From: an uncultured Candidatus Marinamargulisbacteria bacterium
Lineage (GTDB): Bacteria; Margulisbacteria; Riflemargulisbacteria; GWF2-35-9
Reading direction: 5' to 3'
DNA length: 34,357 nucleotides
Assembly (NCBI GenBank): GCA_903897765.1
Contig: CAIUCY010000221.1
Location: 1 to 34,357, forward strand
The notes beneath the pieces were generated by a model. The model saw only the letters and a list, made by a program, of their open reading frames with translations. It made no database searches and was not told the DNA's origin. The position numbers and the translations under genes were made by a program. Positions 8,011 through 34,357 of the stretch are shown here, piece by piece (position 1 is the stretch's first letter; each line of letters begins with the position of its first letter).

Positions 8011-9015
8011 TTAAACGAATTCTTCCATTTCACCTGCACGGGCAAGTTGGATCACGCCGGCATCCTCAAGATTACGAATAATATGAACAATGCGTTGTTG
8101 GGTCTCCTCAACTTGTGACATTCTGACCGGACCTTGATAGTTCATTTCCTCTTTCAAGGTATCCACCGCTCGATCAGATAGGTTCTTAAATACTTTTTCC
8201 TTGAGGGGTTCGCTCGCTGTTTTGAGCGCGATAGGCAAGTCTTTCATGTCAATATCTTGCATGATGCGCTGAATGGTTCTATCATCTATTTTCAAGATAT
8301 CTTCAAATACGAACATCATTTGCTTTATCTTGCTGGCAAGCGGTTCATCTATCCCAACGAGATAGTCCATGATCTTCTTTTCTGTCGCTCGATCAACGCG
8401 ATTGATCACATCGACCAATGCCTTAACCCCACCAGAACTAGAAAAATCTTGAACGATATACGCCGCCATCTTATCTTGAAGCACCTTTTCAACCTGCTGG
8501 ATAATATCGGGTGGGGTCTGATCCATGATAGCAATGCGACGCGCCACCTCAGGTTGTATCTCTTCGGGTAAGGACGAAAGGATATTGCCGGCCATAAGGG
8601 GTTCAAGGTGTGCCAAGATCAGCGCAATCGTTTGGGGTTGTTCGTCATGGATAAACCTTACAATATGGGTTGCATCGGCTTTTTCCAAAAACTCAAACGG
8701 TGCCAGTTGGATATTTTTCGACAAATTGGCAATAATTTTCACGGCCTTATCTTTACCCAGAGCTTGCTCCAACACTTCTTGAGCATATTTAACCCCACCC
8801 CGAGAAATATAGCTCTGAGCCTTACTATCATAGTAAAACTCTTCAATGATCGAATCTTGTTCCTTTGGGGATACCTTCGAAATTCTGGCCAATTCCATGG
8901 TCAGATCAGAGACTTCATCTTCATTTAACCTCTTAAATAATTGAACGGTAGAATCTCGACCCAATGCAAGAAGGAGAAGGGCTGCTTTTCGTTTTCCAGA
9001 AATTCGTTCTACCAT
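8011..9015 (-). CDS. fliG: Flagellar motor switch protein FliG
   Basis: C-ring protein that binds FliF with its N-domain and takes torque from the stator with its C-domain. The 334 residues contain all three domains: N (GKRKAALLLLALG, ~7-19), M (DEQPQTIALILAHL, the EHPQR-type motif, ~128-141, here DEQPQ) and C (MMFVFEDILKIDDRTIQRIM, ~233-252, with the charged torque helix). Normal length; ATG at 9015, 3 nt after the fliF stop. Useful as an internal reference for the divergent FliG-like domain encoded at 31151-32869. Confidence 0.97.
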   Translation of the reverse strand: MVERISGKRKAALLLLALGRDSTVQLFKRLNEDEVSDLTMELARISKVSPKEQDSIIEEFYYDSKAQSYISRGGVKYAQEVLEQALGKDKAVKIIANLSKNIQLAPFEFLEKADATHIVRFIHDEQPQTIALILAHLEPLMAGNILSSLPEEIQPEVARRIAIMDQTPPDIIQQVEKVLQDKMAAYIVQDFSSSGGVKALVDVINRVDRATEKKIMDYLVGIDEPLASKIKQMMFVFEDILKIDDRTIQRIMQDIDMKDLPIALKTASEPLKEKVFKNLSDRAVDTLKEEMNYQGPVRMSQVEETQQRIVHIIRNLEDAGVIQLARAGEMEEFV

Positions 9016-9017
9016 CG

Positions 9018-10571
9018 CTAGTCTTCAGACAACCATCGACGAAGGATCTTGGCAAAGACCTCAGGGTCGGTGTGCGCCATATCAATAATAGAGTTCTTCA
9101 TCGCCTGTTTCTTTTGATCATCAGCACTCAATTCAGCATCTTCTAGGGGAATAATGGGAAGAGGGACTTCTCGCGTCGTACCGGCCACTTGATTAACCCC
9201 CCAAGCACCTCCTGATGCAGAGATGGTCGACAAACGACGAAGTTGACGGCGCGCATAAAACACGGTCAGGATCAATAATAAGACCAACCCAACATTTTTA
9301 AAGGTCATCAAGATGGTCTCGTTTTGTTTCATAGACTTCATTTCTTTGGTATCTTTTTCAAGCGAAGTTTTGTCAAAGGGGAACGTCGACAGGGTCAAAA
9401 TATCGCCGCGATTTTTATCAAGCCCTGAGGCAGATGAGATCGCATCCATCAGGTTTTGCTTCTCATCATCTTTAAGTTTCCGATCCAAGATAACGGCGAT
9501 CGATAGCTTTTGAATGGCTCCGGGGGATTTTGTAAAATGTTCAACCCGTTTTGAAAGTTCAAAGTTCCGTGTTTCATCCGTTTTTGAATAATTTGAGTTT
9601 TGCGCGCTATTTTGTCCAGCAGGGATATTCAGATTGGCTGGAGGTGGCGAGTTGTTTCCCTTGTAGCCTTCTTCGACAGCACGTTCACTTCTCACATTTT
9701 GGACATCGGAAGGCAAATAGGTTTCGCTGTCAGAATTCAGCCGATCAAAATTCATGGCCACATTCACCCGAACCACACACGATTTGGCCCCAAAAACATT
9801 CGTTAACATACTTTCGATCTGGAATTGGATCATTTTTTCCACTTTTCGCTGAACCTCAACTTGGGTCATACTCAACCCCGCTTGCATCCCTTCCTCTTCC
9901 GAGTAAGCATACAGCACATTCCCATGTGTATCGACGATCGACACATTCTTTGCGGTCAACCCTTTGACCGAGCTAGCCATGAGGTGGACCAGTCCGTTAA
10001 CCTGTCCATCCGTTAAGGGCTGTGATCCGGCCAGATCAACAACCAACGAGGCTGAAGCCCCATCCTTGTTGTCTTCAGCAAATAACGAATCTTCAGGGAT
10101 CACAATATGAACACGGGCAGCATGGATCTCTTTAATGGTCATGACCGTCCTTGCCAGCTCGGCCTCCATCGCTCGCTGATAATTAACTTTTTGAGTAAAC
10201 TCGGTCGTACCCAATTTAAATTGATCGAAAAGCTCAAATCCCACGGTGCTCACCTTTGGCAATCCCTCGGAAGCCAAGGATACCCGCGTTCCTCGAACAT
10301 TTTTTGCTGGAACAAGGATCGTTGTTCCATCTGCGCCCAATTTATAGGGTATATTTTTTTCCGCTAATTTTTTAACAACATCCCCCGCGTCTTGAGCACT
10401 CAGCCCCGCATAGAGAGTTTGATAGTCTGGTCGAGACCCCCAGATCGAAAGAGCGAACAACGACACAAAAATAACGATACCTAAAAGGACCAACGTCATC
10501 CGTTGCGCAATACTCAAGTCTTTTATGACCGTAACGATCTGTTCGAAAATAACCCTAAAAAAAGCTGGCAT
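9018..10571 (-). CDS. fliF: Flagellar MS-ring protein FliF
   Basis: Forms the MS ring in the inner membrane, the base of the rotor. The 517-residue protein has an N-terminal transmembrane helix (TLVLLGIVIFVSLFALSIW, ~27-45), ring-building domains RBM1-2 (QTLYAGLSAQDAGDVVKKL, ARVHIVIPEDSLF), the RBM3/collar region with a low-complexity loop (~300-330) and KLSIAVILDRKL, a second transmembrane helix (KNVGLVLLLILTVFYARRQL, ~440) and a short cytoplasmic tail ending HTDPEVFAKILRRWLSED that binds FliG. Three bases separate it from flgC, where fliE is often found; fliE is absent here. Confidence 0.97.
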   Translation of the reverse strand: MPAFFRVIFEQIVTVIKDLSIAQRMTLVLLGIVIFVSLFALSIWGSRPDYQTLYAGLSAQDAGDVVKKLAEKNIPYKLGADGTTILVPAKNVRGTRVSLASEGLPKVSTVGFELFDQFKLGTTEFTQKVNYQRAMEAELARTVMTIKEIHAARVHIVIPEDSLFAEDNKDGASASLVVDLAGSQPLTDGQVNGLVHLMASSVKGLTAKNVSIVDTHGNVLYAYSEEEGMQAGLSMTQVEVQRKVEKMIQFQIESMLTNVFGAKSCVVRVNVAMNFDRLNSDSETYLPSDVQNVRSERAVEEGYKGNNSPPPANLNIPAGQNSAQNSNYSKTDETRNFELSKRVEHFTKSPGAIQKLSIAVILDRKLKDDEKQNLMDAISSASGLDKNRGDILTLSTFPFDKTSLEKDTKEMKSMKQNETILMTFKNVGLVLLLILTVFYARRQLRRLSTISASGGAWGVNQVAGTTREVPLPIIPLEDAELSADDQKKQAMKNSIIDMAHTDPEVFAKILRRWLSED

Positions 10572-28486: not shown

Positions 28487-29233
28487 TTATTTTACAACCA
28501 CAGATCGAAAAGCGGCAAGGATTAGATCATATCGCGGTCCAGGACGCTTCATGACCTCTTTTGAAAGAAATATGATCTTTGTTTGGGATGGCCAAAGTCC
28601 TTTATACCAGCCCAAGTGGCCGGCTTCAAGAACAAGGATATTGTCTGGCGAGAATACCGATAGTCCCTCTCGTCCTATCATCGGATATCGCTGAGTCCCT
28701 TTAAACACCGACGAAAAGCCTGCCGCTGCTAACATCGGACTATAGAAAGTCTCTCGCCCCAACACATAGGCCGCTTCGATTCGACCATTACGAACAACTT
28801 GCTCGAGTATCACGAGGACTGACCGTGTTGGAGAAGAAGAGGGTTGCAAAGGAAGCGCATGCCGGTTTAGCCACAGTGAGGCCATTCTCTCTTCCCCTAA
28901 AATACTGCCCAAGCGTTTGACCATATCCCTTATACCAACGATCGACTCCGCATCAAAGGTCTCCACCTTCAGATGATGTTGCCGACAAAAAGCGATCAAC
29001 GGTGCATGGGTTCTCAACAGCAAGACCCGATCGGGCTTTAGTGAAAGGAGTTGCTCCTCATTGACATCGTTATACCCCCCGACCTTTGGCAGTTTTTTGG
29101 CTGCGTCAGGATAGTCACAATACCGCGTCACCCCCACCAACTGTGATTGGCCACCGAGGAGGAATACCGTCTCGGTGATGCTAGGCGCCAGCGAGACGAG
29201 TCGCGCCGGAAAGGCGAGACCTGCAAGAAGCAC
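28487..29233 (-). CDS. btuF: Cobalamin ABC transporter substrate-binding protein BtuF
   Basis: Periplasmic class III binding protein: LVSLAPSITETVFLLGGQSQ, LVGVTRYCDYP, LPKVGGYNDVNEEQLLSLKP and DRVLLLRTHAP are characteristic of BtuF/FecB-like proteins; a complete C-lobe follows (PMLAAAGFSSVFKG, SPDNILVLEAGH). GTG 29233 is the first normal start but would give a signal peptide without its basic N-region. Reading from ATT 29257, which overlaps the btuB stop, gives LKRITTLVLLAGLAFPA, a proper Sec signal, so a non-standard start is likely. Works with BtuB and the BtuCD at 16137-17856. Confidence 0.9.
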   Translation of the reverse strand: MLLAGLAFPARLVSLAPSITETVFLLGGQSQLVGVTRYCDYPDAAKKLPKVGGYNDVNEEQLLSLKPDRVLLLRTHAPLIAFCRQHHLKVETFDAESIVGIRDMVKRLGSILGEERMASLWLNRHALPLQPSSSPTRSVLVILEQVVRNGRIEAAYVLGRETFYSPMLAAAGFSSVFKGTQRYPMIGREGLSVFSPDNILVLEAGHLGWYKGLWPSQTKIIFLSKEVMKRPGPRYDLILAAFRSVVVK

Positions 29234-29250: not shown

Positions 29251-30999
29251 TTAGAATGATATGCTGACCTTTATTCCACCCGTTCGTCCCGGCATTACAT
29301 ACCCAGAATATTCCTCGTACGTTTGATTGAACACGTTATGAACAAATAGAGAGTATATGTCTTTGGTGTAATCCATATCCACAACCCAATAACTGGGCAA
29401 TGCGATCGAACCTCCTGTCATCGACAAGCGTTCGGAAACATAATTCGCTCGGATCGACAGACTTCCCGACAACCCACCCATGTTTAGCGCCATATTTACT
29501 TTCGTTTTGGCTCTATTTTGTAGCCAAGCCCCTGTTTTCTCGTCACTGGCATCTAACATTTGTGTCCAGTTGAGATTGTACAGAATGGCCTCCCCAACGC
29601 TACCAAACCACTCGGTTTCCATACCACTTAACCGTGCACGGCCGACATTGTTCGGCGAGGATGAAGACCAGTCGGCCGAGGAACCCCATTCGATGAGATC
29701 ATTCACTTTCTTTTCAAAATAGGACGTTCGAAAGCTTCCTATTGAAGTTCTCATGGTTAGTTCGAGATCAATATTTCGGGCAGTTTCTGGTCGAAGGTTG
29801 GGGTTCCCCACACTTCCGTAACTATCCTGACAATAAAGATCCGCTAATGAAGGGGCTCGAAAAGAGGTGCCATAGGACATTTTTAATGAACAATCTCCAC
29901 CCAACAAAAAAGCTTGGCTGAACTTATAGGTATCCGCCGTTCCAAAACGGGAGTGTTGATCTTGCCTGACGCCCATATTCATTTTCCACCACGGACTGAA
30001 TGACCAATCATCATTGATATACGCCGCATCATTTTGAAGGGAATGGTTCTGACTAAGAATACTATCGTTCGGGATCATTTGTTCCGTTTCTAGCCCCAAG
30101 ATGATCGCATGATCCACAAGTCTAAATTCTTTCGTTCCACCTAGGGTATTTGACCATCCCTTTGAGTCCGACACAGCCCCACTTATCGCCGTTCGTTCAT
30201 CACACTTTGTTGTAAAATACAGGCGCCCTCCCGAACGATCATTATCCCCTATCTGGGTCTCTAGACAGTACCCTTGATCTTTCTGTTCGGAGGCCGAATA
30301 CAGGCCCGCAGGATTCCCTCGTTGATCTGAGTAGGCTGACCCCGCCACCCTCACTTTATAATCATGCAGCAACACCTCGTTATACTCTATGGCCAAAATA
30401 TCATTATTAAAATATCCCACAGGGAGGTAGCCATCATATCGGCCATGAAGCAAACTCAACTGAACGTTTGACGCCACTGTTCCCTGCGAATACGCTAAAG
30501 AAAGGTTTTGATTTCCATATGAACCGAGCTCTAAACTCAGTTTATTCTGGCCCAGCGTTCTTGACGAGACAATGTTGATCACCCCACCCACCGCATCAGC
30601 ACCATAAACAGCCGACATGCCGCCACGATAGAGTTGAATTTCCTGAACCTGCTCAAGGTTGATATTGTTCAGGTCAACGGTTCCATAAACGGCATTCTTC
30701 ATGGGAATACCATCCCGAAGGATCAGCGTTTGGTTTGAATTAGCCCCTTGAAGGGAAAGGGCATTCACGCCTCCTTTTCCTCCATATCGATTGGCCTGCA
30801 CGCCAGGCTCACCTTGCAAGATATCGCCGATCGAAAAGTCTTTGTATCGATGAACATCTTCTTCAGAGATCAGCGTGCTATTGGGATAGGTTGAGAGAAA
30901 TCGAGACGCAGTCACTACAAAGTTCAGATTCGTACTCATCGGCACCGCCAACACAAAACCCAGACATAAACAACTGATAACAATACGGGGGAAAAACAT
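29251..30999 (-). CDS. btuB: TonB-dependent outer-membrane receptor BtuB
   Basis: 582-residue cobalamin receptor of the outer membrane. Signal peptide (~1-20), a TonB-box-like NFVVTASRF (~26-34), plug domain (YKDFSIGDILQGEPGVQANR, LSLQGANSNQTLILRDGIPM, VQEIQLYRGGMSAVYGADAV, GGVINIV) and a 22-strand barrel with alternating aromatic residues ending in FNQTYEEYSGYVMPGRTGGI and a terminal Phe. The plug matches BtuB best (small, RDGIPM). GGAGGTGG precedes the ATG at 4 nt and the riboswitch lies directly upstream. Confidence 0.93.
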   Translation of the reverse strand: MFFPRIVISCLCLGFVLAVPMSTNLNFVVTASRFLSTYPNSTLISEEDVHRYKDFSIGDILQGEPGVQANRYGGKGGVNALSLQGANSNQTLILRDGIPMKNAVYGTVDLNNINLEQVQEIQLYRGGMSAVYGADAVGGVINIVSSRTLGQNKLSLELGSYGNQNLSLAYSQGTVASNVQLSLLHGRYDGYLPVGYFNNDILAIEYNEVLLHDYKVRVAGSAYSDQRGNPAGLYSASEQKDQGYCLETQIGDNDRSGGRLYFTTKCDERTAISGAVSDSKGWSNTLGGTKEFRLVDHAIILGLETEQMIPNDSILSQNHSLQNDAAYINDDWSFSPWWKMNMGVRQDQHSRFGTADTYKFSQAFLLGGDCSLKMSYGTSFRAPSLADLYCQDSYGSVGNPNLRPETARNIDLELTMRTSIGSFRTSYFEKKVNDLIEWGSSADWSSSSPNNVGRARLSGMETEWFGSVGEAILYNLNWTQMLDASDEKTGAWLQNRAKTKVNMALNMGGLSGSLSIRANYVSERLSMTGGSIALPSYWVVDMDYTKDIYSLFVHNVFNQTYEEYSGYVMPGRTGGIKVSISF

Positions 31000-31011: not shown

Positions 31012-31145
31012 ACGAGCGATTACGTTAAAGGCGTTCCGACTTTTCCCCTCACTTGTCTGCCTTAGGCAGGAGGCGAATTCACGGTTGCGGGCCAGCGCGG
31101 GGTTTTCACCCGACTTTCCCTTTAACCATCACATTATGGCGTGGA
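31012..31145 (-). ncRNA. Cobalamin riboswitch
   Basis: Minus strand: GGTTAAAGGGAA (31132 downward), GTCGGGTGAAAACCCCGCGC, TGGCCCGCAACCGTGA, a variable GCCTCCTGCC/GGCAG hairpin, AGTGAGGGG, AAGTCGGAACGCC and CCTTTAACG closing on TTAAAGG. The B12-box-like GGCCCGCAACxGTGA, GGGAA and AGTCGGA elements are diagnostic. The aptamer ends just before the btuB Shine-Dalgarno, so translational repression on cobalamin binding is likely; no strong terminator stem with a T-run is seen. Confidence 0.92.
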
Positions 31146-31150
31146 AACGA

Positions 31151-32869
31151 TTATTTGAAAAGCGAATCAATATCATCTTGTTCCATTCTCGTCTCGTCGA
31201 CTCCGAATTCTTTCTGAACAAGATTGATCCGTCCCATTTTCTTTAATACTTTGGCTACTTTTACCACAACCCCTTTGGCATTATCGATCTCAACGGGCGC
31301 ATAGGAATCTTTTCTAAGCTCAATAACTTCGTTTACCATCGCGACCAATCCTTCGGCCAAGCCCATCAACTTTTGTTCTCGATCAGATTCGTCCATATTG
31401 ATCAAAATTAATGCTAGAATATCAGGATCTAGCTCCATAAACACTTTAAGCAACTCTTCTTGTGGAAGGGCAATGACATCCTCAAAAAGAACGATCATAT
31501 CACGAAGCTCAAAAAGCACATCTGGATATTTTTCATGAAGCGCCATAGTGATCTCAGATTTTTTATCAGCTGGGAATCGATCTATTAAGGGAAGCACAGC
31601 ATGCTTACCCCCAATTAAACAGGCGACTTTATCTTTATACAGCTTCTCAAGTTCATAGATTTCCGAAACCGGATGCTCAACCTCGTAGGTAAGAAAGGGG
31701 ATGATCTCTGTTTGTTCTTCTGTTGTAAATCGAGAAAAGATAACCGCACTCATATGTGTCGGGAGGTATGAAATAATAATAGCGACCCTCTGCCAAAACA
31801 AAGCCTGGTCAGCGTCATCGGGTTGGGGTTTGTCTCTTTCAAGCAAATAGGCTAATTTAATGATATTGTTATCCGTTACGAAATCAAAGTAGTCCCGAAT
31901 GGCATTGCTTTCCTTAAAAGTGAGTTCGTCTGATCCTAAACCACCCGCACCCATTAACCCCAACCCTCCAACCAAATCAACGTCGGAACCTCCCACTCCT
32001 CCACCTTGTTTGGAGTCGCCGCCTGATTTATTTACTGAGGCGTCCCCCGCTGCCACCCCTACACTACTTGCTATATTGGTTGCTGAACCGGAGAGCCGAA
32101 ACAGCGCAAACGCAATGCCTCCCATCATTAATATCAATAACGAACCCAAGGCAATGGTGATAATCTCTTTTACGCCAACCTTGCCTGATGAATTAGTCAT
32201 TAACTGTCCAATAAATTCCTTCCCCGATTTGATCTCGCTTTTGATAAACCCTATCGACTTTTCGCTTTCTTTGGCGCTGAGTTCTTGTTGTTGAAGATTG
32301 GTTTGGAGTATAGCGTTAAATTTGTCATCCGAGCTTTTTTGGGTATTGGTGTTGCTATCGATCATGGCCCTGATCAACTGCATTTCAGCTGATTCGCCCC
32401 CACTATTGGAGAACTTTTCTCTCGACACCTTGATCGTGCTGTCTTTATATTGGTCGAAATCCAATATCGACTTTATTTTATCTAAAACGGCTTTTTCACT
32501 AACCCCCGTCGAATTGATCCAAACATTAACTTCATAGTGGCTAAAGACATAGGCGTTCTGAATATTTGCTTTCGATATCTGCTTTATGGGAACCCCTGGC
32601 AAGAATAGGGTTTGGATCTTTTGAGCATTAGCCATATTAACTTTCACTCGAACCTTCAGCGAGATCATAACTTGGTTGGGACCGAAGATCCTGTCGATAA
32701 GACTCTGTGCATCTTTTTCTTTTATTTGTTGATAAGTCAGGATCTCTGCGCCCGAATTAAATTCTAGTTCAACGGGTTTAATGTTAATTGAACTCGTCGG
32801 TTCTGTCGCCAACGACGCATTCACAGTGAAACTGAGGCATATAAAGAAGAGAAGTAGTAGGTTTTTCAT
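31151..32869 (-). CDS. FliF-RBM3/FliG-like hybrid membrane protein (novel rotor-switch-like)
   Basis: 572 residues in five parts. Signal peptide ~1-21. Periplasmic domain ~55-153 matches FliF RBM3: LIDRIFGPNQVMISLKVRVK and VNVWINSTGVSEKAVLDKIK against FliF LTNVFGAKSCVVRVNVAMNF and IAVILDRKLKDDEKQNLMDA. One transmembrane helix (IITIALGSLLILMMGGIAF, ~235-256). Gly-rich linker ~262-315. FliG middle plus C-like domain ~322-550: DKPQ...VAIIISYLP, EKYPDVLFELRDMIVLFEDV against FliG DEPLASKIKQMMFVFEDI. The torque-helix DDRTIQR is replaced by PQEELLK. The extreme C-terminus MEQDDIDSLF resembles the FliM CheY-binding peptide. FliG N-domain and RBM1-2 are absent. Topology equals a FliF-FliG fusion. The ATG overlaps the SLH-TPR stop (TGATG). 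No description of this architecture is known to me. Confidence 0.72.
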   Translation of the reverse strand: MKNLLLLFFICLSFTVNASLATEPTSSINIKPVELEFNSGAEILTYQQIKEKDAQSLIDRIFGPNQVMISLKVRVKVNMANAQKIQTLFLPGVPIKQISKANIQNAYVFSHYEVNVWINSTGVSEKAVLDKIKSILDFDQYKDSTIKVSREKFSNSGGESAEMQLIRAMIDSNTNTQKSSDDKFNAILQTNLQQQELSAKESEKSIGFIKSEIKSGKEFIGQLMTNSSGKVGVKEIITIALGSLLILMMGGIAFALFRLSGSATNIASSVGVAAGDASVNKSGGDSKQGGGVGGSDVDLVGGLGLMGAGGLGSDELTFKESNAIRDYFDFVTDNNIIKLAYLLERDKPQPDDADQALFWQRVAIIISYLPTHMSAVIFSRFTTEEQTEIIPFLTYEVEHPVSEIYELEKLYKDKVACLIGGKHAVLPLIDRFPADKKSEITMALHEKYPDVLFELRDMIVLFEDVIALPQEELLKVFMELDPDILALILINMDESDREQKLMGLAEGLVAMVNEVIELRKDSYAPVEIDNAKGVVVKVAKVLKKMGRINLVQKEFGVDETRMEQDDIDSLFK

Positions 32870-33834
32870 CAGAGCATATCTAAAAAATATTTTATTTCTT
32901 CATTATTCGGTTGATAGCGCAGCACCAGTTCCCAATACTTCCTTGCTTTTGTATAATCTTGCAGCATATAGAAGGATGATCCTTTTAAGGAAAGGGCCCC
33001 AATGTTTTTATTATCTTCTTTTAAAATGAGGTTACATTCATCTATTGCTTGCCAGAACTGAAAGTCATAAAACGCAAGAAGGGCTTTATTCAATCTCTTT
33101 GTTAACACATCGAGGCTTTCATTAGATACGTCTTCGTTTGATTTTTGATAGGCGATATCTCGCGTTGTGGCGATCTCCCAAAACATCATCTCACATTGAA
33201 GGTTTCGTTTGCGATACGCGGTTAATTCAAGTCGATCAAGCGATTGAGCGCCTCCAATAATATAGTCACTGATCGCGGAACCAATAATTTGTTGTTCTTT
33301 TATAGTGGCGCTACTTTTTTGAGCAGCAACTCTGGCCGAGATCGCTGGGTTTTTTATAAGAACGGCAATTAGCTTTTCTCTCGTTACATAACTTTTATCA
33401 TTCACATTGTCACTAAAATTAATTGCCGGAAATATCTTTTTAAGTATGTCTACCGCATCCGACATTTGAAGAATATTTTGATAGTTCTTGTCGCCCGATT
33501 CTATGTACTTATTTTCTACCCCTGTCTGAATAAATGGAAAAACCTTCATCTCAGGGAGTACGTCTTTGAAGTAGGGTTGATTGATAGATCCATTCGGGGT
33601 TATATTTCCTAACCACATGGCTATCACCATAACTTGAAGACCATTTAGGTTTGCATCTGGTTGGAAAGTATTGTCTACAAAAGCAGGCATAAATCCATTC
33701 GCCATAAAAAACTGTGCCTCATTATAGTATTGATAGTTCGGACTAATATCTGTCGCTTCGAGTGCCAACGACAGGGATTGGCATAACATGATAAAGGCAC
33801 AGATAAAGAATATTTTTATTTGTTTATTGAACAA
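32869..33834 (-). CDS. Exported SLH-like / TPR protein
   Basis: 321 residues starting at TTG 33834 with GAGG 8 nt upstream; N-terminal signal peptide (IKIFFICAFIMLCQSLSLAL, ~6-25). Residues ~35-165 look like S-layer-homology units (AQFFMANGFMPAF, LNGLQVMVIAMWLG, YFKDVLPEMKVFPFIQTGVE, LQMSDAVDILKKIFPAI, YVTREKLIAVLI). A helical middle leads to TPR repeats at ~250-321 (LLAFYDFQFWQAIDECNLIL, GALSLKGSSFYMLQDYTKAR, YWELVLRYQPNNEEIKYFLD). Probably periplasmic or cell-wall-facing, so it could anchor or scaffold the periplasmic RBM3-like part of the hybrid protein that it overlaps. A TATACT (33897-33892) upstream is a possible -10. Confidence 0.72.
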   Translation of the reverse strand: MFNKQIKIFFICAFIMLCQSLSLALEATDISPNYQYYNEAQFFMANGFMPAFVDNTFQPDANLNGLQVMVIAMWLGNITPNGSINQPYFKDVLPEMKVFPFIQTGVENKYIESGDKNYQNILQMSDAVDILKKIFPAINFSDNVNDKSYVTREKLIAVLIKNPAISARVAAQKSSATIKEQQIIGSAISDYIIGGAQSLDRLELTAYRKRNLQCEMMFWEIATTRDIAYQKSNEDVSNESLDVLTKRLNKALLAFYDFQFWQAIDECNLILKEDNKNIGALSLKGSSFYMLQDYTKARKYWELVLRYQPNNEEIKYFLDML

Positions 33835-33927: not shown

Positions 33928-34100
33928 TTATCGTTCTAAGATTTTTTTTGTTCAAGCATACGAGATTCATCGAAAGGTTTAACAATAAAATTTATAGCAC
34001 CCTCGTCAGCCTCACAGACTTAATATCCAGCCGCCACCTAGATCTGGGTTAAACGCATGCGAAGAAATGCAGTATCGTCGACAACGAGCACCTTAACCAT
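33928..34100 (-). pseudogene. Decayed CheY-like receiver (second of a tandem pair)
   Basis: The frame opens MVKVLVVDDTAFLRMRLTQI, the start of a CheY-type receiver with the acidic DD pair, then meets TAG, continues VAAGY, TAA, VCEADEG and jumps straight to GAINFIVKPFDESRMLEQ, the C-terminal part with the conserved Lys (VKP). The middle ~60 residues including the phosphorylated Asp are gone. An 8-A run near the end is one base short of restoring the ending KKILER. The start overlaps the preceding stop (TAATG). Gene decay and poor consensus at a contig end are both possible. Confidence 0.75.
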
Positions 34101-34289
34101 TAATCTAGGGATACTACTTTTGCGATAGTACTGAGAAGGGATTTTTCTTCATAGGGTTTAATTAAAAAATTTTTAGCGCCGAATTCTAACGCTTTCATAA
34201 TGGTCTCTTGCTGAGAAAAACTGCTTAACATAACCACTTTAGCTTTCTTATCTATTTTCATGATCTCCTGTAATGCTTCGAGTCCGTTC
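34100..34289 (-). CDS. CheY-like response regulator receiver, C-terminal fragment
   Basis: The last 62 residues of a receiver domain: NGLEALQEIMKIDKKAKVVM, LSSFSQQETIMKALEFGAKN, FLIKPYEEKSLLSTIAKVVS. The conserved Ser/Thr (MLSSFS), GAKNFLIKPY with the Lys and the alpha-5 region are visible; the phosphorylated Asp and the N-terminus lie beyond the contig end. The true sequence stops at 34289; the apparent N-terminal residues TGVRVCSSDL upstream are translated adapter. First gene visible of an operon continuing into the decayed receiver. Confidence 0.88.
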
Positions 34290-34357
34290 AGATCGGAAGA
34301 GCACACGCGAACTCCAGTCACGGTTGGACATCTCGTATGCCGTCTTCTGCTTGAAAA
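34290..34357. other. Illumina TruSeq adapter left on the contig end
   Basis: AGATCGGAAGAGCACACG, then GAACTCCAGTCAC, an 8-base index-like GGTTGGAC, then ATCTCGTATGCCGTCTTC and TGCTTG followed by AAAA: the 3' read-through adapter in order, with a 2-base deletion after CACACG. Not biological sequence; it should be trimmed. Confidence 0.97.

Follow-up and report, generated by a model that had tools for sequence, protein, structure and literature searches.

A FliM-like putative CheY-docking peptide at the C-terminus of a FliF/FliG hybrid protein from Marinamargulisbacteria

The window analyzed here, a stretch of 34,357 nucleotides from an uncultured Marinamargulisbacteria bacterium, encodes a hybrid protein of 572 amino acids (31151-32869, minus strand) in which FliF-like and FliG-like parts are combined and which ends with a short peptide, EQDDIDSLF (residues 563-571; 31157-31183, minus strand). 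As judged from its sequence, this tail is probably a docking peptide for a phospho-CheY-type receiver, situated on the FliG-like part of an inner-membrane hybrid that would belong to a non-flagellar, MotA/MotB-powered envelope machine.

Results

The hybrid gene runs from a signal peptide or transmembrane (TM) segment to the CheY-docking-type tail, and the encoded chain closes with MEQDDIDSLFK (...GVDETRMEQDDIDSLFK; ...QKEFGVDETRMEQDDIDSLFK). The core EQDDIDSLF, a putative CheY-docking motif of the FliM/CheZ type, begins 13 residues past the point at which the Pfam match to FliG_C ends. As this match spans residues 444-550, the peptide belongs to an extension of approximately 20 residues beyond the FliG fold. 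No such C-terminal extension is present in the canonical FliG of the window (8011-9015) when the two are aligned. The FliM-like core peptide, which the initial annotation had placed at the C-terminus of the hybrid between 31151 and 31200, is hereby confirmed, its position falling inside this range. The linker that connects FliG_C with the peptide (VQKEFGVDETRM; 31184-31219, minus strand) is conserved at F555 and G556 and variable at most of its other positions.

Every one of the eight related genomes that form the orthologue class (G000-G007) contains an orthologous hybrid, with two hybrids each in G003 and G007, and the tail is kept in all ten of them, which settles positively the question of its conservation among homologues that had been raised with the initial annotation. 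The ten tails are EQDDIDSLFK (found twice), AQDDVDALFK, NQDEIDALFKNM, EQNEIDQLFEGFN, DDKKIDELFQV, SQLEIDKLFEDDN, DQQEIDKLFDDN, SQEDIDNLI and SQEDIDAFI, from which a conserved pattern Q--(I/V)D-L(F/I) with varying positions in between emerges. In a column-wise comparison of the orthologues, Q564, I567, D568, L570 and F571 are held with pairwise identities of 0.64-1.0, and positions 565, 569 and 572 are variable (0.11-0.16). The mean identity of the orthologue columns amounts to 0.39 for the linker versus 0.54 for the motif. The tail is retained even in orthologues of as little as approximately 25% identity. A scan of genome contigs yielded the sister species (L021, an uncultured Marinamargulisbacteria MAG with 80% identity) as its sole match, and this MAG is the nearest named record of the clade; in the sister genome, G001, the hybrid neighbourhood is locus L024. 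Between the window and this species, the last 12 codons exhibit five synonymous and no non-synonymous differences.

Peptides of the same kind are found at the N-termini of two flagellar proteins from the window's own genome, namely SQDEINALL in FliM (which begins with MSSILSQDEINALL) and QNEIDTLL in FliN (which begins with MSGDISIDQNEIDTLL), the latter being identified via FliMN_C in a gene run that resembles fliL-fliN-fliO-fliP. In a set of 729 distinct ORFs, only hybrids have the strict pattern at most 25 residues from the C-terminus, and only FliM and FliN have it at most 20 residues from the N-terminus. As this background includes loci that were retrieved by the pattern itself, the resulting bias runs against, and not toward, the exclusiveness found. 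A profile made from FliM and FliN N-termini alone placed hybrids on ranks 1-6, and on eight of the top nine, of the 729 C-termini; the only other protein among these nine was a G004 protein of 223 amino acids with an acidic tail and without a Pfam match. According to this sequence profile, the hybrid thus has a CheY-binding-type peptide at a free terminus, which is a trait of FliM. On the DNA level, the pattern Qx(DE)(IV)(DN)xL(LF) yielded five matches in the window's own genome versus none for a reversed control, the latter not being zero in every relative. Its protein-terminal matches in the genome are FliM, FliN and the hybrid, and the other matches that were inspected are internal or out of frame. 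As terminal matches of the pattern are confined to FliM, FliN and hybrids, a chance match was rejected as the origin of the tail. The acidic G004 protein (L118:3322-3993), which ends with EMSNDDIEALLNAQLS, is itself a possible CheZ-like ligand of CheY.

Domain matches and hydropathy together give the order of the hybrid as periplasmic FliF C-terminal-like domain, TM segment, Gly-rich linker, FliG_M, FliG_C and tail. The FliG_C domain (31220-31540, minus strand) matches Pfam PF01706 with E=3e-8. The preceding FliG_M-like (ARM) part (residues 328-443; 31541-31888, minus strand) exhibits a weak match to PF14841 (E=0.001) and aligns with solved FliG from F328 onward. Compared with solved structures, the profile of the hybrid's family finds the M and C domains of FliG with E=3e-41 and FliF (6scn) with E=0.005. 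FliG_C is present in all 29 family members and FliG_M in 25 of them; the FliF C-terminal domain PF08345 (YscJ_FliF_C) is matched by six members, which do not include the window hybrid, and the FliF homology of the latter derives from its family and not from its own sequence. Its periplasmic domain, a putative counterpart of the FliF C-terminal (RBM3/beta-collar) domain, covers approximately residues 38-150 (32420-32758, minus strand) and includes an LPGxP loop; P91 and G92 are invariant. The hydropathy profile reveals a signal or TM segment at the N-terminus and a single further TM segment at residues 239-257 (32099-32155, minus strand; peak of 2.38 at residue 239). A Pfam scan of the window hybrid and its family yielded no match to FliM with its CheC-like middle domain, to the SpoA domain that forms the C-terminus of FliM, or to PF01514 (YscJ_FliF N-terminal, RBM1/2). 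In the same scan FliG_N, by which FliG binds the tail of FliF, was absent from the hybrid, with a weak match in two family members, and its place is taken by the TM segment and the FliF-like domain of the same chain. The hybrid did not match the CheZ domain of Pfam, which carries the catalytic Gln, either. As there is no FliM domain in the hybrid, the term "FliM-like" chosen in the initial annotation is apt for the peptide, but not for the protein as a whole.

In the torque helix of the window hybrid and of most orthologues, R281, D288 and D289 of E. coli FliG are replaced by G, E and V, respectively. R281 and D289 of E. coli FliG have been reported to contact MotA (PMC12505986). With both residues replaced, stator coupling of the hybrid, if there is any, should be unlike that of E. 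coli. The idea that the hybrid is a part of the flagellum was rejected, as canonical FliF, FliG, FliM and FliN are encoded in the same genome, with the gene of FliF (9018-10571) lying next to that of FliG in the window. A third set of such proteins, consisting of a FliF C-terminal protein, a divergent FliG with an N domain and a weakly FliM-like protein, is located beside the flagellum (L023:8789-11255; G000:C241), and an equivalent set is found in the sister genome (L103:9617-12125).

Directly upstream of the hybrid lies the gene of a secreted SLH/TPR partner (32869-33834, minus strand), which has TPR matches and for which SLH is seen in the L035 fusion; partner and hybrid form a single chain in three relatives (L029, L035 and L036). 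Further upstream lie a decayed CheY gene (CheY-1; 33928-34100, minus strand), which is interrupted by in-frame stops and has lost approximately 170 bp internally, as revealed by alignment with its intact counterpart (L024:12403-12762), and the 3' part of a second receiver gene (CheY-2; 34100-34289, minus strand; PF00072, E=1.5e-10), which ends at the contig end and has a full-length orthologue in the sister genome (L024:12763-13164). The initial annotation had described the hybrid as encoded just downstream of CheY-like genes. This holds for the sister genome with its two intact tandem CheYs at the corresponding site, whereas the window itself offers one decayed gene and one contig-end fragment. 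Positions 34290-34357 are an Illumina P7 adapter with index that was assembled onto the contig end. The ORF 34100-34357 takes its first residues from this adapter.

Tandem CheY genes upstream, beside hybrid and SLH/TPR gene, occur in G001 and G003. G005 contains a single run of genes for MotA, MotB, two CheYs, SLH/TPR, a coiled coil, an outer-membrane protein and a surface protein, and G006 exhibits the same run with one CheY. For three of the eight genomes (G002, G004 and G007) CheY is unlinked to the hybrid in the contig stretches examined. MotA/MotB genes adjoin the hybrid in G003 (both loci) and G004 (at L028, L031 and L029 among the loci), adjoin SLH/TPR and CheY genes at L098 and L100, and lie on other contigs in G000 and G001, beside an outer-membrane protein, a surface protein and a coiled coil. 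The best solved matches of this MotA are the flagellar stators PomA/MotA (E of approximately 1e-35), and MotB consists of plug and OmpA peptidoglycan-binding domains. A FliM/FliN partner gene is not encoded beside the hybrid. Aligned with E. coli CheY, the linked receivers retain the Asp pocket, the phosphoacceptor D57, T/S87, an aromatic residue at 106 (Phe in the hybrid-linked CheYs) and K109. The CheY tree is too poorly resolved to unite the CheYs linked to hybrids in a single clade.

The tail is absent from other hybrids, namely from tailless paralogues and from those of other Margulisbacteria. The initial annotation had held that same-domain homologues without a conserved tail would speak against its proposal; such homologues were found only outside the orthologue group, and nearly all of them have no CheY or CheA in their operon or genome. 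In other Margulisbacteria, tailless operons have the order TPR, hybrid, MotA and MotB (L013, L018, L038, L039 and L041), and the respective organisms have no strong match to CheA or canonical FliM. Strong CheA matches are restricted to G000-G007, which also contain nearly all CheYs that are closely similar to the linked ones. Within the tailed class, the second, tailless paralogue has an adjoining CheY in G007 only (L037 8287-8691). In a tree of the FliG part all tailed hybrids fall into one clade (support 97/94), requiring one change. The tail arose once, in a clade with strong CheA and close CheYs. As this gain is one evolutionary event, the correlation between tail and signalling carries no more weight than that. 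At several loci (L022:34-2344; L025, L030, L032 and L040) the tailless second paralogue precedes a free FliG_M/C protein and, after this, a secreted protein of approximately 2,500 amino acids, and some loci of this group also include MotA/MotB.

Discussion

The tail of the hybrid shares with the N-terminal peptide of FliM a short Q-x-(D/E)-(I/L)-(D/N)-x-L-L core at a free protein end. Unlike the FliM peptide, it is located C-terminally, on a FliF/FliG hybrid without a FliM domain, and the last residue of its core is usually Phe. As the tail is C-terminal, the C-terminal peptide of CheZ is the closer positional precedent: by position, which is the only respect in which the two were compared, both stand at the extreme C-terminus after a linker, although the protein that carries the tail does not contain a CheZ domain. 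We assume that the two peptides are also alike in sequence, with the core of the tail being presumably nearer to that of FliM (Q--ID-L) than to that of CheZ.

In the flagellum, CheY grips the N-terminal helix of FliM via its alpha4-beta5-alpha5 face, and this binding reshapes FliG, of which FliG_C is the part that moves upon switching (PMC11528121). By analogy, CheA might phosphorylate the CheYs of the hybrid system, and CheY-P might then bind the tail via the same alpha4-beta5-alpha5 face. With MotA pentamers acting on FliG_C domains that are arranged in a ring or row, CheY-P tethered straight to FliG_C could alter the engagement of the latter with MotA; the bound receiver would shift either the orientation of FliG_C or the engagement of the stator, and the machine would reverse or stop without FliM. 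That receiver binding would switch the machine had been suggested in the initial annotation, and this suggestion is supported in part, namely by the conserved tail, the matching peptides of FliM and FliN, the retained phosphorylation and switch residues of the linked CheYs and the shared occurrence of tail, CheA and close CheYs.

It is also conceivable, albeit unlikely, that the tail docks CheY for localization, as a phosphate sink or for recruitment of a phosphatase in the manner of CheZ, and not for switching a motor. The placement of the tail after a short linker at the C-terminus is that of the CheZ peptide, which binds the same face of CheY as FliM does (PMC3774744), one of two tandem receivers may serve as a sink, and the FliM/FliN partner that a switch would call for is missing from the genes beside the hybrid. 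Nevertheless, it is FliG_C, the very domain that moves when the flagellum switches (PMC11528121), that carries the tail, and the Pfam scan revealed no CheZ match in the hybrid.

Slightly less probable still is a tail that docks a different partner, such as a SpoA/FliN-like protein, a coiled-coil protein or the hybrid itself, with the likeness to FliM being convergent. Such a partner is conceivable, as short amphipathic helices of acidic character often serve as ligands and as CheY and hybrid are not neighbours in three of the eight genomes. However, the conserved positions of the tail are those of FliM, the pattern was seen at the termini of FliM, FliN and hybrids only, and the tail occurs only in the lineage that has CheA and close CheYs. 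The overlap of the gene end with an RNA element offers another explanation for the conserved tail, as an Rfam cobalamin riboswitch (31024-31158, minus strand) extends over the hybrid's stop codon and final residues. That conservation stems from this RNA, or from shared ancestry without any function, is very improbable: the codons of the motif (31160-31183) are not part of the riboswitch, the residues stay the same despite changes at synonymous sites, and the tail persists in G003-G007, where the downstream genes differ. With the motif codons upstream of the riboswitch and synonymous sites varying, conservation driven by the riboswitch was rejected. The riboswitch itself (RF00174) precedes two genes, which encode a TonB receptor (29251-30999) and, at 28487-29233, a periplasmic binding protein.

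A phospho-CheY-type docking tail thus remains our preferred reading, and it can tentatively be extended to the entire system, although we consider this larger picture slightly less probable than not. Beside a normal flagellum, Marinamargulisbacteria might possess a second, filament-less and chemotaxis-controlled motor with a one-chain FliF/FliG rotor or track, its own MotA/MotB and a phospho-CheY switch on the C-terminus of the rotor, which would move giant surface proteins and might descend from the tailless FliF/FliG-MotA-MotB machine of other Margulisbacteria. If this is true, a motor based on FliG would exist apart from the flagellum, and the torque protein would receive the chemotaxis signal without the detour via FliM. 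The attachment of CheY control and of the FliF/FliG/MotAB module to different machines would then become testable, with the tailless Margulisbacteria relatives as a natural before-and-after comparison for the gain of a chemotaxis switch via a peptide of approximately 10 residues.

With flagellar FliG and FliF the hybrid shares its FliG_M and FliG_C homology and, in part of the family, the FliF C-terminal domain. It differs from them in being one natural chain without FliG_N and without RBM1/RBM2, encoded apart from the canonical pair. Laboratory fusions of FliF and FliG join M-ring and switch protein into a single polypeptide and can still form rings (PMC11481574). In contrast to these fusions of flagellar proteins, the hybrid is a fusion of natural origin and reduced length, is encoded elsewhere than in the flagellar operon and has a stator and receivers of its own. 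The gliding motors AglRQS and GldLM are of the MotA/MotB class with 5:2 stoichiometry, are tied to envelope and surface proteins and serve adhesin movement (PMC9389320). In the hybrid system, MotA/MotB-class motor genes are likewise linked with those of envelope and surface proteins. A FliG-like rotor is not described for AglRQS and GldLM in PMC9389320, whereas a flagellar-type MotA goes with a FliG hybrid here. Publications on FliG or motility of Margulisbacteria, or on FliG-like gliding proteins, that describe this system were not found in the open-access literature.

The linkage of SLH/TPR, outer-membrane and giant surface proteins suggests movement at the cell surface as the output; the linked giant surface proteins may be displaced by gliding or in a comparable way. 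Gliding in particular is a guess, to which we would give somewhat less than an even chance. A search for SprA_N, which represents the SprA translocon of T9SS/GldLM gliding systems, yielded no match in 51 genomes, with the control being equally silent. Several long coiled-coil proteins adjoin the system (L028:4157-9976, L031:4724-7477, L098:3550-6804 and L095:6987-8951); they share an N-terminal N-P-D-(I/V) motif, and one of them matches DivIVA.
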